A stretch of 64,000 nt of DNA from Herbaspirillum sp. SJZ107 (GTDB taxonomy: Bacteria; Pseudomonadota; Gammaproteobacteria; Burkholderiales; Burkholderiaceae_D): the NCBI RefSeq assembly GCF_006715485.1, contig NZ_VFNH01000001.1, forward strand, positions 930,001 to 994,000. The letters run 5' to 3'. Positions 22,088 through 26,084 of this stretch are shown here, one piece after another. The position numbers and the translations under genes are program-made. Under the pieces are notes generated by a model. It was not told where the DNA came from, ran no database searches, and worked only from the letters and a program-made list of their open reading frames with translations. The first letter of the stretch is position 1; each line of letters starts with the position of its first letter.

Positions 22088-24361
22088 TCATGTAGTAACG
22101 TCGACGTCCCACCACTGCGGCAGCAGCGCCAGCACGTCCTGCCGCGCGAAGCGGTCGTCGATCAGCCACACGGTGCCGCGGTCCTGTTCGGTGCGGATCA
22201 CGCGTCCGGCGGCCTGCACCACCTTCTGCATGCCGGGATACAGATAGGTGTAGTCGTAGCCCGCGCCGAACATCGCCTGCATGCGCTCGCGCAGCTGCTC
22301 GTTGACCGGGTTCACCTGCGGCAGGCCGAGGGTGGCGACGAAGGCGCCGATCAGGCGGTCGCCCGGCAGGTCGACCCCTTCGCCGAAGGAGCCGCCCAGC
22401 ACGGCGAAGCCGATGCCGCGCCCATCGGGCGTGAAGCGCTCCAGGAAGGCGGCGCGGTCCGGTTCGCTCATGCGGCGCGACTGGCGCCAGGTCGGGATGT
22501 CCGGGTGCGCCGCCTCGAACGCGTCGGCGGCCTGCTGCAGGTAATCGAAGCTGCTGAAGAAGGCCAGGTAGTTGCCGGGCTTGGCAGCGTACTGGCGCGC
22601 CATCAGGCCGGCGATCGGCGCCAGCGATGCCTTGCGGTGCTGGTAGCGGGTCGAGATGTTGCGCGCCACGTGCACCTGCAGCTGGTGGGCGTGGAAGGGC
22701 GAGTCGACGTCGATCCAGGCGGTGTCCGCCGGCATGCCGAGCAGGTCGGCGAAATAATGCCAGGGCCCGAGGGTGGCCGAGAACAGCGTGGTCGAGTGGG
22801 CGAAGCCGAAGCGCGGTGCCAGGAAGGGCGCCGGCACCACGTTGCGGATGCACAGGACGGTGTCGCGCTCGTCGACCCGGGTCAGGTCGAAGATCGAGTG
22901 CTCGCCGAAGGATTCGGCCAGGCGCTGGAACTGGAGCATGCTGAAGTAGAACTCCTGCAGCGCCGGGTCGAGCGGCACCGGGAAGGCAGCCAGGTGTTCG
23001 GTGATGGCGCTGGCGGCGTTCTGCAGCGCATTCAGCATCTTCTCGGAGACGCCATCCAGTACCTGGTAGGGCAGCGGTGCGGCCTTGCTGGCGTCGAGCC
23101 AGGCGCGCCCGATCTTTTCCAGCGGCTTGGCCAGGTTCGGCGGCGCCACCGCGCGTGCGGCGCGCAGCGCGGCCCGTTCCAGCGTGGCGGTGTACATCGA
23201 GCGCGCGCGCGCGACCAGGTTGTGCGCCTCGTCGGCCAGCACGCTGGTCTTCCAGCCGTTGGCCAGTGCCAGCGCGTACAGCATGGCGCCGCCGTCGAAC
23301 CAGTAATTGTAGTCGCCGACGATGACGTCGCTCCAGCGCGCCATTTCACTGCCCAGGTAGTAGGGGCAGACGTCGTGGGCCAGGCCGATCTCGCGCAGCG
23401 TGGCGCGGTCGAGCACCGGGACATCCGCGGCGACGGCGGCGGCGCGCGCGGCCGGCAGGCGGTCGTAGAAGCCCTTCGCCAGCGGGCAGGCCTCGCCGTG
23501 GCAGGCGGCATCGGGATGTTCGCAGGCCTTGTCGCGCGCGGTGAGTTCCATCACGCGCAGCGGGATGCTGCCGCCTGCCTTGAGCGTCGCGGCCGCGTCC
23601 AGCGCCAGCTGGCGTCCGGGCGTCTTGGCGGCCAGGAACACGATCTTGTCGAGGCCCTCGCGCGGCGTCGCCTTCAGCACCGGGAAAAGGGTGCCGACGG
23701 TCTTGCCGATGCCGGTCGGGGCCTGGGCCAGCAGGCTGCGCTTGCTCGCGTTCGCGCGGAAGATGGCTTCGGCGAGCTGGCGCTGGCCGGGCCGGAAATC
23801 GGCATGCGGGAAGCGCAGCGCTTCGAGGGCGGCGTTGCGCGCGGCGCGGTGCGCCAGTTCCAGCTCGGCCCAGGCCAGGAAGCGGCTGCAGTGCTCTTCG
23901 AAGTGGGCCGCCAGCTCGCTGGCGCTGCGGCTCTCGCGCAGCACGGTTTCCTGCTGGGTCCCGATGTCGAAGTAGACCAGGGCCAGGTTGACGCTGTCCA
24001 TGCCGAGCTGCTGGCACATCAGGTGGCCGTAGACGCGCAGCTGGGCCCAGTGCAGGTGGCGGTGGTTGTCGGGGATGCTGTCGAAGCGGCCGCGGAAGGT
24101 CTTCACTTCTTCGATCAGGTTCTGGTCGGGATCGTAGCCGTCGGCGCGGCCGCGCACGTGCAGCGGGCCGAAGTCGCCTTCGAGCGTCACCTCGGCCTTG
24201 TAGTTATCGTCGCGCCGCGCCGCCACCACGGCGTGGCCCTGGATGCCTTCCTGGGCGGTGGGCGAGGGCGTGAAGCGCAGGTCGAGGTCGCCCTGCTTGG
24301 CGGTGAACTCGCACATGGCGCGCACCGCCACCGTGTAGGTGCCTGCGGTGGCGCTGCTCAT
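22088..24361 (-). CDS. XPD/DinG-like FeS helicase with N-terminal PD-(D/E)XK nuclease domain
   Basis: Predicted 5'-3' DNA helicase of 757 residues. Residues 40-115 match a RecB/Cas4-type nuclease: GRADGYD (Asp74), an E-V-K triplet at 85-87 and QLRVY at 107-111 (the QxxxY motif). The helicase core follows: Walker A QAPTGIGKT near residue 220, a cysteine cluster (KACEH, ACHGEAC, VCPYY) fitting a 4Fe-4S cluster, the DEAH-box motif LADEAHN, and motif VI QAAGRVIRTEQD. It overlaps the upstream VRR-NUC gene by 4 bases and shares its SOS-type promoter. A role in crosslink or structured-DNA repair is inferred. Confidence 0.88.
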   Translation of the reverse strand: MSSATAGTYTVAVRAMCEFTAKQGDLDLRFTPSPTAQEGIQGHAVVAARRDDNYKAEVTLEGDFGPLHVRGRADGYDPDQNLIEEVKTFRGRFDSIPDNHRHLHWAQLRVYGHLMCQQLGMDSVNLALVYFDIGTQQETVLRESRSASELAAHFEEHCSRFLAWAELELAHRAARNAALEALRFPHADFRPGQRQLAEAIFRANASKRSLLAQAPTGIGKTVGTLFPVLKATPREGLDKIVFLAAKTPGRQLALDAAATLKAGGSIPLRVMELTARDKACEHPDAACHGEACPLAKGFYDRLPAARAAAVAADVPVLDRATLREIGLAHDVCPYYLGSEMARWSDVIVGDYNYWFDGGAMLYALALANGWKTSVLADEAHNLVARARSMYTATLERAALRAARAVAPPNLAKPLEKIGRAWLDASKAAPLPYQVLDGVSEKMLNALQNAASAITEHLAAFPVPLDPALQEFYFSMLQFQRLAESFGEHSIFDLTRVDERDTVLCIRNVVPAPFLAPRFGFAHSTTLFSATLGPWHYFADLLGMPADTAWIDVDSPFHAHQLQVHVARNISTRYQHRKASLAPIAGLMARQYAAKPGNYLAFFSSFDYLQQAADAFEAAHPDIPTWRQSRRMSEPDRAAFLERFTPDGRGIGFAVLGGSFGEGVDLPGDRLIGAFVATLGLPQVNPVNEQLRERMQAMFGAGYDYTYLYPGMQKVVQAAGRVIRTEQDRGTVWLIDDRFARQDVLALLPQWWDVDVTT

Positions 24362-26052
24362 GCGGCGTCAAGCTGGGTGTCGAGGATGTCCTGCTGCGCC
24401 CACTGCAGGTAGCAGACGGTGAGCGGCATGCCGTGCGCGGCGCAGTACTCGATCCAGCGCAGCTGGTTGTCCTGCAGGCGGTCGCCGGGACCCTTCACTT
24501 CGATCATGTCGTAGCGCCGGTTCGGGTCGGATTCCGCCGGCCGGAACTGGATCAGGTCGGGGAAGCCGGTGCGGTTGTCGCGCACGTCCTGCAGGATGCG
24601 CTCGCACCACAGCTTCAGGTGCGCGGCCGGAATGCAGGCGAGCGCCAGCGCGATGAGGTCCCAGCCCAGGTAGTCCCAGGACACGAAGGGCGACTGCAGC
24701 CCGGCCTTTTGCTCCCAGGTCGCACGGATGGCGGCGCGGTAGCTGCCGTCGTCCAGGCGAGCAAGGCAGGCGTCGAACTCCGCCTTGCGGCGGCGCTGGA
24801 AGTCGGCACTGTACAGGTCGGCCGGGCCGCGGTGGAAAGGGTGGAAAAAGGCGCCCGGGATGGCGGCGAAGATCGCCGGCCAGCACAGCAGGCCGAACAG
24901 GGTATTCGCGAGCGTGTTCTCGACGTAGAACACGGGCGCCTCCTCGGTGTGCAGGTGCGCCAGTACCACGCCCTCGACGCGCCAGTCGCCACCGGGGCGC
25001 GGCAGGTTCAGGTCGAGGCGGCTGGGCGGCGGCGCACGGCGCGACCTGGTCGCCGGGTGGCCGAGCTTGCGCGCCAGGCGCGGGCCGATGCGCAGCAGGT
25101 GCTGGCGTTCGGCTTCGTTTTCCGGCGCGGCGCTGGCGATCTCGAACAGGGCATACGCCTGGTCGAACTTCTCGTGCTTTTCCAGCACCCGGATCGCGCG
25201 GCTGCGGGCGCCGGGGAAGCGGCACTCGGCATACACGCCGTGCGCCTGCTCCCAGTCCTTCTCCTTCTCCAGCTGCTGGCCGAGCTGGAACAGCAGGCGT
25301 TCGCGCCGGCTGTCGAGCCAGTCGTTGTCGAAGGCGTGCGGCGGCAGCGCGCGCACCGCCTGCAGCACCTCGAGCGCCGGCTCTTCGGCGTAGTAGCGCT
25401 CCTTGCAGGCGTGCAGCAGCAGGTAATGGTCGATGTCGGCGCGGCTGCGGAAACCGCGCGAGGCCGGCGAGAACTCGACCTGTTCATAGCGGAACAGGCC
25501 GAGGTCGGACAGCACGAATTCGGTCCAGTCCTGGCTCAGGTTGCCGAAGAAGAGCAGGCGCAAGCGATCGCACAGCGGTTTCAGCAGGATCGCGAACACG
25601 GTGTCCTGGCAGCCGGCGAACCAGTTCGAAAAAGCGCGGTCCTCGCCGCAATCGGCGCGCAGCGCTTCCAGCTGTTCGCTCTTGCGGGCCTGGCGCTGCT
25701 GCGGCGGCAGCGCGAAGGCCTGGGCGATCTCGGGCTTGGACAGCAGGTCGAACACCTCGTCGAGCGAGACCACCGGATCGAGCGCGATCCAGCCGGTCGG
25801 CAGCAGCGCCTGCGCCGCCTCGAGCGGGCAGCCGATTTCGGCGTAACTCAGTTTGCTGGCGCGGAACAGGTGGCCCTTGCGCATCACCATGCGCACGAAC
25901 AGGGCGCGCGCCGCCTGCGGCAGGGCGGGAAAGCGGGCGATGAAGTCATGCTCGTCGCTGTCGAGCAGGTCGGCGTAGCGCTCGGCGATCCAGTCCAGCA
26001 CGCGCTGGAAGTTATCCAGGTAATAAAACTCGTTTTCCAGAACCCTGATCAT
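24358..26052 (-). CDS. FAN1-like VRR-NUC domain nuclease
   Basis: Homologue of the FAN1 structure-specific nuclease, 564 residues. The C-terminal VRR-NUC domain keeps the PD-(D/E)XK residues: Asp499 in GFPDLIQF and Glu518-Val-Lys520 in MIEVKGPGD, followed by RLQDNQLRW. Ahead of it are an N-terminal SAP-like/helical part with a RKGHLFRASKLSY segment and a helical TPR-like middle. Bacterial FAN1 proteins cut 5' flaps and help unhook interstrand crosslinks. The start at ATG 26052 is preferred over TTG 26064, which lies inside the operator. It is the first gene of a two-gene operon with the helicase. Confidence 0.92.
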   Translation of the reverse strand: MIRVLENEFYYLDNFQRVLDWIAERYADLLDSDEHDFIARFPALPQAARALFVRMVMRKGHLFRASKLSYAEIGCPLEAAQALLPTGWIALDPVVSLDEVFDLLSKPEIAQAFALPPQQRQARKSEQLEALRADCGEDRAFSNWFAGCQDTVFAILLKPLCDRLRLLFFGNLSQDWTEFVLSDLGLFRYEQVEFSPASRGFRSRADIDHYLLLHACKERYYAEEPALEVLQAVRALPPHAFDNDWLDSRRERLLFQLGQQLEKEKDWEQAHGVYAECRFPGARSRAIRVLEKHEKFDQAYALFEIASAAPENEAERQHLLRIGPRLARKLGHPATRSRRAPPPSRLDLNLPRPGGDWRVEGVVLAHLHTEEAPVFYVENTLANTLFGLLCWPAIFAAIPGAFFHPFHRGPADLYSADFQRRRKAEFDACLARLDDGSYRAAIRATWEQKAGLQSPFVSWDYLGWDLIALALACIPAAHLKLWCERILQDVRDNRTGFPDLIQFRPAESDPNRRYDMIEVKGPGDRLQDNQLRWIEYCAAHGMPLTVCYLQWAQQDILDTQLDAA

Positions 26053-26063
26053 CGCCGTCGCCA

Positions 26064-26084
26064 ACTGTACACTTGTACAGTATA
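26064..26084 (-). promoter_or_regulatory. LexA (SOS) box overlapping the -10 of the fan1-like operon
   Basis: ACTGTACACTTGTACAGT at 26064-26081 is palindromic apart from its central two bases and fits the CTGT-N8-ACAG LexA operator of gamma- and betaproteobacteria. On the minus strand the hexamer TATACT (26079-26084) overlaps its edge and looks like the -10 box, so bound LexA would block the promoter. The first ATG is 12 bases beyond the box. No clear -35 is visible. Confidence 0.82.

Follow-up and report, generated by a model that had tools for sequence, protein, structure and literature searches.

A putative LexA-controlled operon of a FAN1 nuclease and an EndoDinG-type nuclease-helicase in Herbaspirillum sp. 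SJZ107

In the stretch of Herbaspirillum sp. SJZ107 DNA analysed here (64,000 nucleotides, called the window, with positions counted from its first letter), two genes for DNA-processing enzymes lie one behind the other on the minus strand, preceded by a short palindrome. The features are as follows.

24358 to 26052, minus strand: FAN1, bacterial type with HTH, SAP and VRR-NUC domains, ATG start at 26052
22088 to 24361, minus strand: EndoDinG, an N-terminal PD-(D/E)XK nuclease joined to an XPD/DinG-type Fe-S helicase, start overlapping the FAN1 stop (ATGA)
26065 to 26080, no strand assigned: LexA-type operator CTGT-N8-ACAG, a near-perfect palindrome
26079 to 26084, minus strand: TATACT, a -10-like hexamer overlapping the operator, read from the sequence

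The two reading frames share four bases (ATGA), the FAN1 stop lying within the EndoDinG start, and both this overlap and the positions bear out the first-pass annotation, which had placed two coupled genes behind a box here. For FAN1 a longer reading frame is also available, with a TTG start at 26064 that directly abuts the box; the ATG at 26052 is favoured over it by the start positions in relatives, and if this is the start then the box lies outside both genes. On the upstream side, the next ORF on the same strand as FAN1 has no Pfam match, and on the downstream side a convergent gene is recognised by Pfam as a LytTR response regulator; the unit therefore looks like two genes.

Three Pfam models, FAN1_HTH (PF21315), FANC_SAP (PF18081) and VRR_NUC (PF08774), each match above the curated cut-off, so that the earlier description as a VRR-NUC (FAN1) nuclease holds for a full-length bacterial FAN1, with the HTH/SAP region followed by the C-terminal VRR-NUC domain; a search of the NCBIfam models gave no name for it. 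Among 15 sequences, D499 and K520 are invariant and E518 is kept in at least 90%, which makes up the D ... E-x-K motif that we take to be the catalytic residues. The P. aeruginosa FAN1 (PA1865; crystal structures for example 4r89 and 5y7g) is a full-length homologue with the same active-site motif, and its structure 4r89 is the closest solved relative, matching residues 9-557 with 608 bits.

The second product combines two enzymes in one chain. Helicase_C_2 and DEAD_2 score above the Pfam cut-off, and PDDEXK_1 is found at the N-terminus below it. Among 14 sequences H43, E57, E85, K87, Q107 and Y111 are invariant and D74 is conserved in at least 90%, so the N-terminal PD-(D/E)XK centre has its H, E, D, E and K; in the same number of sequences the four-cysteine Fe-S motif comprises C280, C292 and C332, all invariant, and C287, present in at least 90%. 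The predicted structure (mean pLDDT 85.3) has H43 in a helix and E57 and E85 in strands, and is closest to 9kqh, the Finegoldia magna DinG with ssDNA (Z 32.6, 720 residues, rmsd 4.7), to which phmmer also relates the sequence with E 6.8e-106. All names that NCBIfam offers are XPD/DinG ones and sub-threshold, for example 83.8 bits with the DinG model (cut-off 598) and 86.9 with the YoaA model (cut-off 680). The E. coli genes dinG and yoaA, likewise XPD-family helicases of bacterial repair, are under LexA control; we know of neither a fused nuclease nor a FAN1 partner for either of them. The EndoDinG class of the review PMC11981726 (section 3.7), with a representative in B. bacteriovorus, shares with the present protein the PD-(D/E)XK centre of H, E, D, E and K, the CCCC Fe-S motif and the helicase core, and the features match; calling the gene a nuclease-helicase fusion was right. 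Neither FAN1 nor VRR is mentioned in the main text of this review, and the partnership with FAN1 and the probable control by LexA are added here.

The box, CTGTACAAGTGTACAG on the minus strand (26065-26080), has its end 12 bases upstream of the FAN1 ATG. Counting the bare pattern was tried as evidence and rejected: an exact CTGT-N8-ACAG occurs once in the 64-kb window against 0.49 expected, 40 of 100 shuffles contain at least one, and in the whole genome the 42 sites are not commoner than the 41 of the reversed control. The significance of the box hence comes not from such counts but from its conservation upstream of orthologues and its resemblance to the SOS boxes of the same genome.

As for conservation, which the first-pass annotation had named as a check, the palindrome is indeed present upstream of the orthologous operons. 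In the named genomes an exact box lies at most 200 bp upstream of FAN1 in 58 of 60 loci (62 FAN1 loci minus two without a gene start). All 58 belong to the Massilia group (Massilia, Telluria, Pseudoduganella, Rugamonas and other Oxalobacteraceae or Burkholderiaceae), and of the two loci without an exact box, that of Alcanivorax has a site with one mismatch and that of Marinobacter no site at all. Across the 58 boxes the eight half-site bases and position 5 are constant and the other seven spacer positions vary, giving 23 distinct 16-mers; in the more distal upstream flanks of 55 boxed loci, 257,793 bases in all, the exact site was found 0 times. Among 40 divergent members of the home family, hand-chosen from 98 FAN1-bearing genomes, 23 carry the exact box at a distance of up to about 400 bp and eight only a one-mismatch site, a class that at this width is partly due to chance; the remaining nine have neither, which counts against the reading of the locus as an SOS operon.

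The hexamer overlapping the box is also recurrent, for in 52 of the 58 boxed relatives TATA stands before it and gives the same TATACT overlap. Of the earlier statement that the operator overlaps the -10 box, the overlap with TATACT stands; the promoter scan, however, returned no sigma-70 hexamer pair and no -35 element matching TATACT, and it is plausible that the operator overlaps a -10 box.

With regard to the SOS genes of the same genome, lexA has an exact box, CTGTATTTTTGTACAG, 31 bp upstream, and exact boxes are likewise located upstream of dinB, ruvC and two imuA genes, as well as at dnaE2 and parE (128 bp away), the last two being named from truncated frames below the model cut-offs. 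In the comparison with lexA and recA that had been proposed, the window's box matches that of lexA, and the recA site, CTGGGATTTTATACAG, has one mismatch; neither this comparison nor that of the orthologous promoters refuted the first-pass interpretation. In a matrix trained on eight SOS sites of this genome, the window's box is 16th of the 42 exact sites and 9th of the 35 outside the training set; it ranks above the mass of chance sites and below the strongest SOS boxes. Altogether, the near-perfect palindrome that had been read as a LexA operator is present, is conserved in relatives and is like the operator of the genome's own lexA, and such sequence comparison strongly indicates regulation of the FAN1-EndoDinG operon by LexA.

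Beyond the home family, 19 of the 369 genomes sampled from the class carry FAN1, as do 169 of 390 from one order and, at the level of families, 176 of 201 (f173), 352 of 398 (f162) and 14 of 21 (f145). In the class sample, 3 of 17 FAN1 promoters (loci L103-L119; our own genome and one split hit were left out) have an exact box and two more a one-mismatch box. For the three families, the 150 bp upstream of each FAN1 match were scanned and compared with control windows of the same size drawn from these loci. A box with at most one mismatch is present in 43 of 44 loci in f162 (5 exact; controls 66/1174), in 15 of 30 in f173 (1 exact; controls 21/802) and in 14 of 14 in f145 (4 exact; controls 8/350), so that the control rate is 2 to 6% across the families; these fractions are to be read with the f162 and f173 loci being the best-scoring returned and not random ones, and with related genomes not being independent. 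The 15 loci of f173 that have no box at this level are a further point against the SOS-operon reading. In f162 the box usually ends in CCAG; in f145 lexA has CTGG-N8-ACAG in the four genomes checked.

Which of the two genes the box belongs to can be judged from genomes where they occur separately. Of 195 genomes sampled from the home family, 98 carry FAN1 and 119 have a strong EndoDinG match; the linkage is conserved, all 98 FAN1 genomes also have EndoDinG, and 21 have EndoDinG alone. Of these helicase-only loci 16 were fetched, one of them with only about 70 bp of upstream sequence, and in 14 the promoter carries neither an exact box nor one with a single mismatch; the exceptions are one exact box 83 bp and one one-mismatch box 80 bp before EndoDinG. 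Conversely, three genomes of f145, the family whose FAN1 is boxed in 14 of 14 loci, gave only weak matches when searched for EndoDinG (E 3e-10 to 1e-6), and in f162 seven of the 44 loci have a boxed FAN1 but show no EndoDinG in the flank that was fetched. Assigning the box to the helicase is therefore not supported; rather, the box follows FAN1, and EndoDinG on its own is not necessarily an SOS gene.

Two observations on particular loci may be added here. In the genome G427 (L164 3060-3160), which is the case with the exact box 83 bp before EndoDinG, the box is followed by a FAN1 remnant, MPAVPDHRFYSLSNFQQAA, with a stop; EndoDinG comes next, again overlapping by ATGA. The remnant resembles the start of FAN1 in the genus-mate G394. 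FAN1 has suffered a large internal deletion, of which a stub of 19 residues remains, so that the box now stands directly before the helicase gene. The seven f162 loci with boxed FAN1 and no EndoDinG in the fetched flank (L291, L295, L299, L305, L308, L309 and L310) share a distinct box, CTGTACGGATAACCAG.

The family f162 also provides a link to data from Pseudomonas aeruginosa. The FAN1 of its genome G1259, the nearest to P. aeruginosa among those sampled, is 93% identical to the P. aeruginosa crystal protein; an exact CTGTATGCATGAACAG lies 18 bp before its GTG start, and EndoDinG overlaps the end of FAN1 by eight bases. According to PMC12796719, PA1865 (FAN1) and PA1866 are induced by UV with no known LexA-like regulator, PA1865 responds to UV-C and ciprofloxacin by induction and to hydrogen peroxide by repression, and it does not count among the 15 SOS genes known from P. 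aeruginosa; in contrast to what is proposed for the present operon, it is placed in none of the known regulons of LexA, Prt and Alp. PA1866 would presumably be the EndoDinG seen in G1259, and with an exact box before FAN1 in that genome we predict that control by LexA explains the UV response of PA1865-PA1866. In many pseudomonads the box departs slightly from the consensus at its CCAG end, and if the operon is induced only modestly in the SOS response, as the broader reading given below would have it, this would explain why the UV-responsive pair is absent from the lists of LexA targets.

Taken together, we consider the locus, with a probability of about 0.74, to be a two-gene repair operon of the LexA (SOS) regulon, from which FAN1 and EndoDinG are made upon damage, likely for work on crosslinks or flaps. 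Also weighing against this reading are the 16th rank of the box in the matrix, the lack of a -35 in the promoter scan, the 14 helicase-only loci without a box, and the placing of PA1865 outside the known SOS genes together with its repression by hydrogen peroxide. In Herbaspirillum sp. SJZ107, LexA would bind the palindrome and block the promoter, and RecA filaments on damaged DNA would trigger its cleavage, upon which FAN1 and EndoDinG would be produced together, coupled by the ATGA overlap. FAN1 would most likely incise 5' flaps and forks next to a lesion, for instance an interstrand crosslink; the 5'-3' Fe-S motor of EndoDinG would most likely open the duplex from the incision, and its nuclease, the second of the pair, would most likely trim the displaced strand and leave a gap, to be filled presumably by the SOS translesion polymerases (ImuA/DnaE2, DinB).

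As to the substrate, there is a considerable chance, somewhat short of one half, that the operon is SOS-controlled but that its main substrate is not the interstrand crosslink, the pair instead clearing 5' flaps, R-loops or collapsed forks: the helicase fold is common to XPD, DinG and CasDinG, and 21 of the 119 genomes with a strong EndoDinG match have no FAN1, whereas PMC12796719 ascribes to PA1865 a guiding role in the unhooking of interstrand crosslinks, and in Arabidopsis, by PMC6550410, fan1 and fancjb mutants are both hypersensitive to mitomycin C with the double mutant no worse than the singles.

A broader reading, which we put forward tentatively and would not bet on at even stakes, holds that FAN1 is a core and unlisted SOS gene across much of Beta- and Gammaproteobacteria, and that FAN1 with EndoDinG is the bacterial counterpart of the plant FAN1-FANCJ crosslink unit; as part of the same tentative reading, one enzyme would nick at the crosslink and the Fe-S helicase-nuclease would open and trim from that nick. 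To our knowledge FANCJ carries no RecB-like nuclease. Arabidopsis FAN1 and FANCJB (PMC6550410) are similar in that a FAN1 nuclease there shares a crosslink-repair pathway with an XPD-family Fe-S helicase, and the difference is that the plant pathway uses a FANCJ-type helicase and has no LexA. The same source reports FAN1 and FANCJ of chicken DT40 cells to be synergistic and not in one pathway, which we count against the task proposed for the operon.

It is unlikely that the palindrome is the site of another repressor, such as an S24-type or other HTH regulator, and not of LexA. The assignment depends on sequence comparison, the box is often imperfect in f162 (the CCAG end) and in f173, and P. 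aeruginosa has the further LexA-like repressors PrtR and AlpR (PMC12796719); nevertheless, the half-sites and their spacing are identical to those of the boxes of lexA and other SOS genes in the same genome, lexA in one f162 genome has both CTGT-N8-ACAG and CTGT-N8-CCAG, and the authors of the Pseudomonas study did not assign PA1865 to PrtR or AlpR.

A reading of the two genes as a module of defence against phages or plasmids that resembles repair genes is very improbable, for although EndoDinG reaches 396 bits against the PADLOC model typeIV_DinG (PDLC01439), FAN1 has no PADLOC match at E 0.1, the region 12000-36000 of the window has no direct-repeat array (the search being for direct repeats of 20 bases or more that lie no further than 120 bases apart), the two flanking ORFs, the only ones scanned in this respect, match no Cas family in Pfam and are the LytTR response regulator and the ORF without a Pfam match, and FAN1 is, unlike mobile defence genes, near-universal in f162 and f173. 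CasDinG of type IV CRISPR is similar to EndoDinG in this PADLOC match and in its helicase fold, where the listed CasDinG crystal structures score Z values of about 19 to 22, and differs in its N-terminal domain, as well as in the repeat array that is missing from the region just given. As a separate matter, a match of this size where no array is found in that region means that PDLC01439 may mislabel EndoDinG genes as CRISPR parts.

How bacteria handle crosslinks other than through UvrABC and recombination is far from settled, and bacterial FAN1 has been noted chiefly as a model, through its crystal structures, for its human relative, a nuclease of crosslink repair. SOS control together with a dedicated Fe-S helicase-nuclease partner would provide bacterial FAN1 with a physiological setting, and the partnership of FAN1 with an XPD-family protein becomes testable in simple bacteria. 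The arrangement seen here is also present in distant bacteria, and it may account for a Pseudomonas damage response, where LexA is a testable candidate for the regulator behind the unexplained reaction of PA1865-PA1866 to UV. Both enzymes are known parts; their operon as a recurrent LexA target appears to be new, since it was not found in the literature searched, most subscription papers being outside its reach.

Several other boxes of the Herbaspirillum sp. SJZ107 genome merit attention in their own right. Two separate imuA genes (L002 and L096) each have an exact LexA-type box before them, and at C2:421061-421076 (L094 1062) a strong LexA-type box is found 128 bp ahead of a gene that matches parE (topoisomerase IV subunit B) over its first 311 codons. 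At C2:1480276-1480291 (L098 977), a box tied for the top matrix score of the genome is located 18 bp before a radical SAM gene of the PA0069 family. Moreover, an exact LexA-type box at C2:169205-169220 (L014 1501) stands 13 bp before another radical-SAM gene, which matches TIGR03916 (rSAM_link_UDG, putative DNA modification/repair radical SAM protein) and which, judged from this box, is possibly an unlisted SOS gene.
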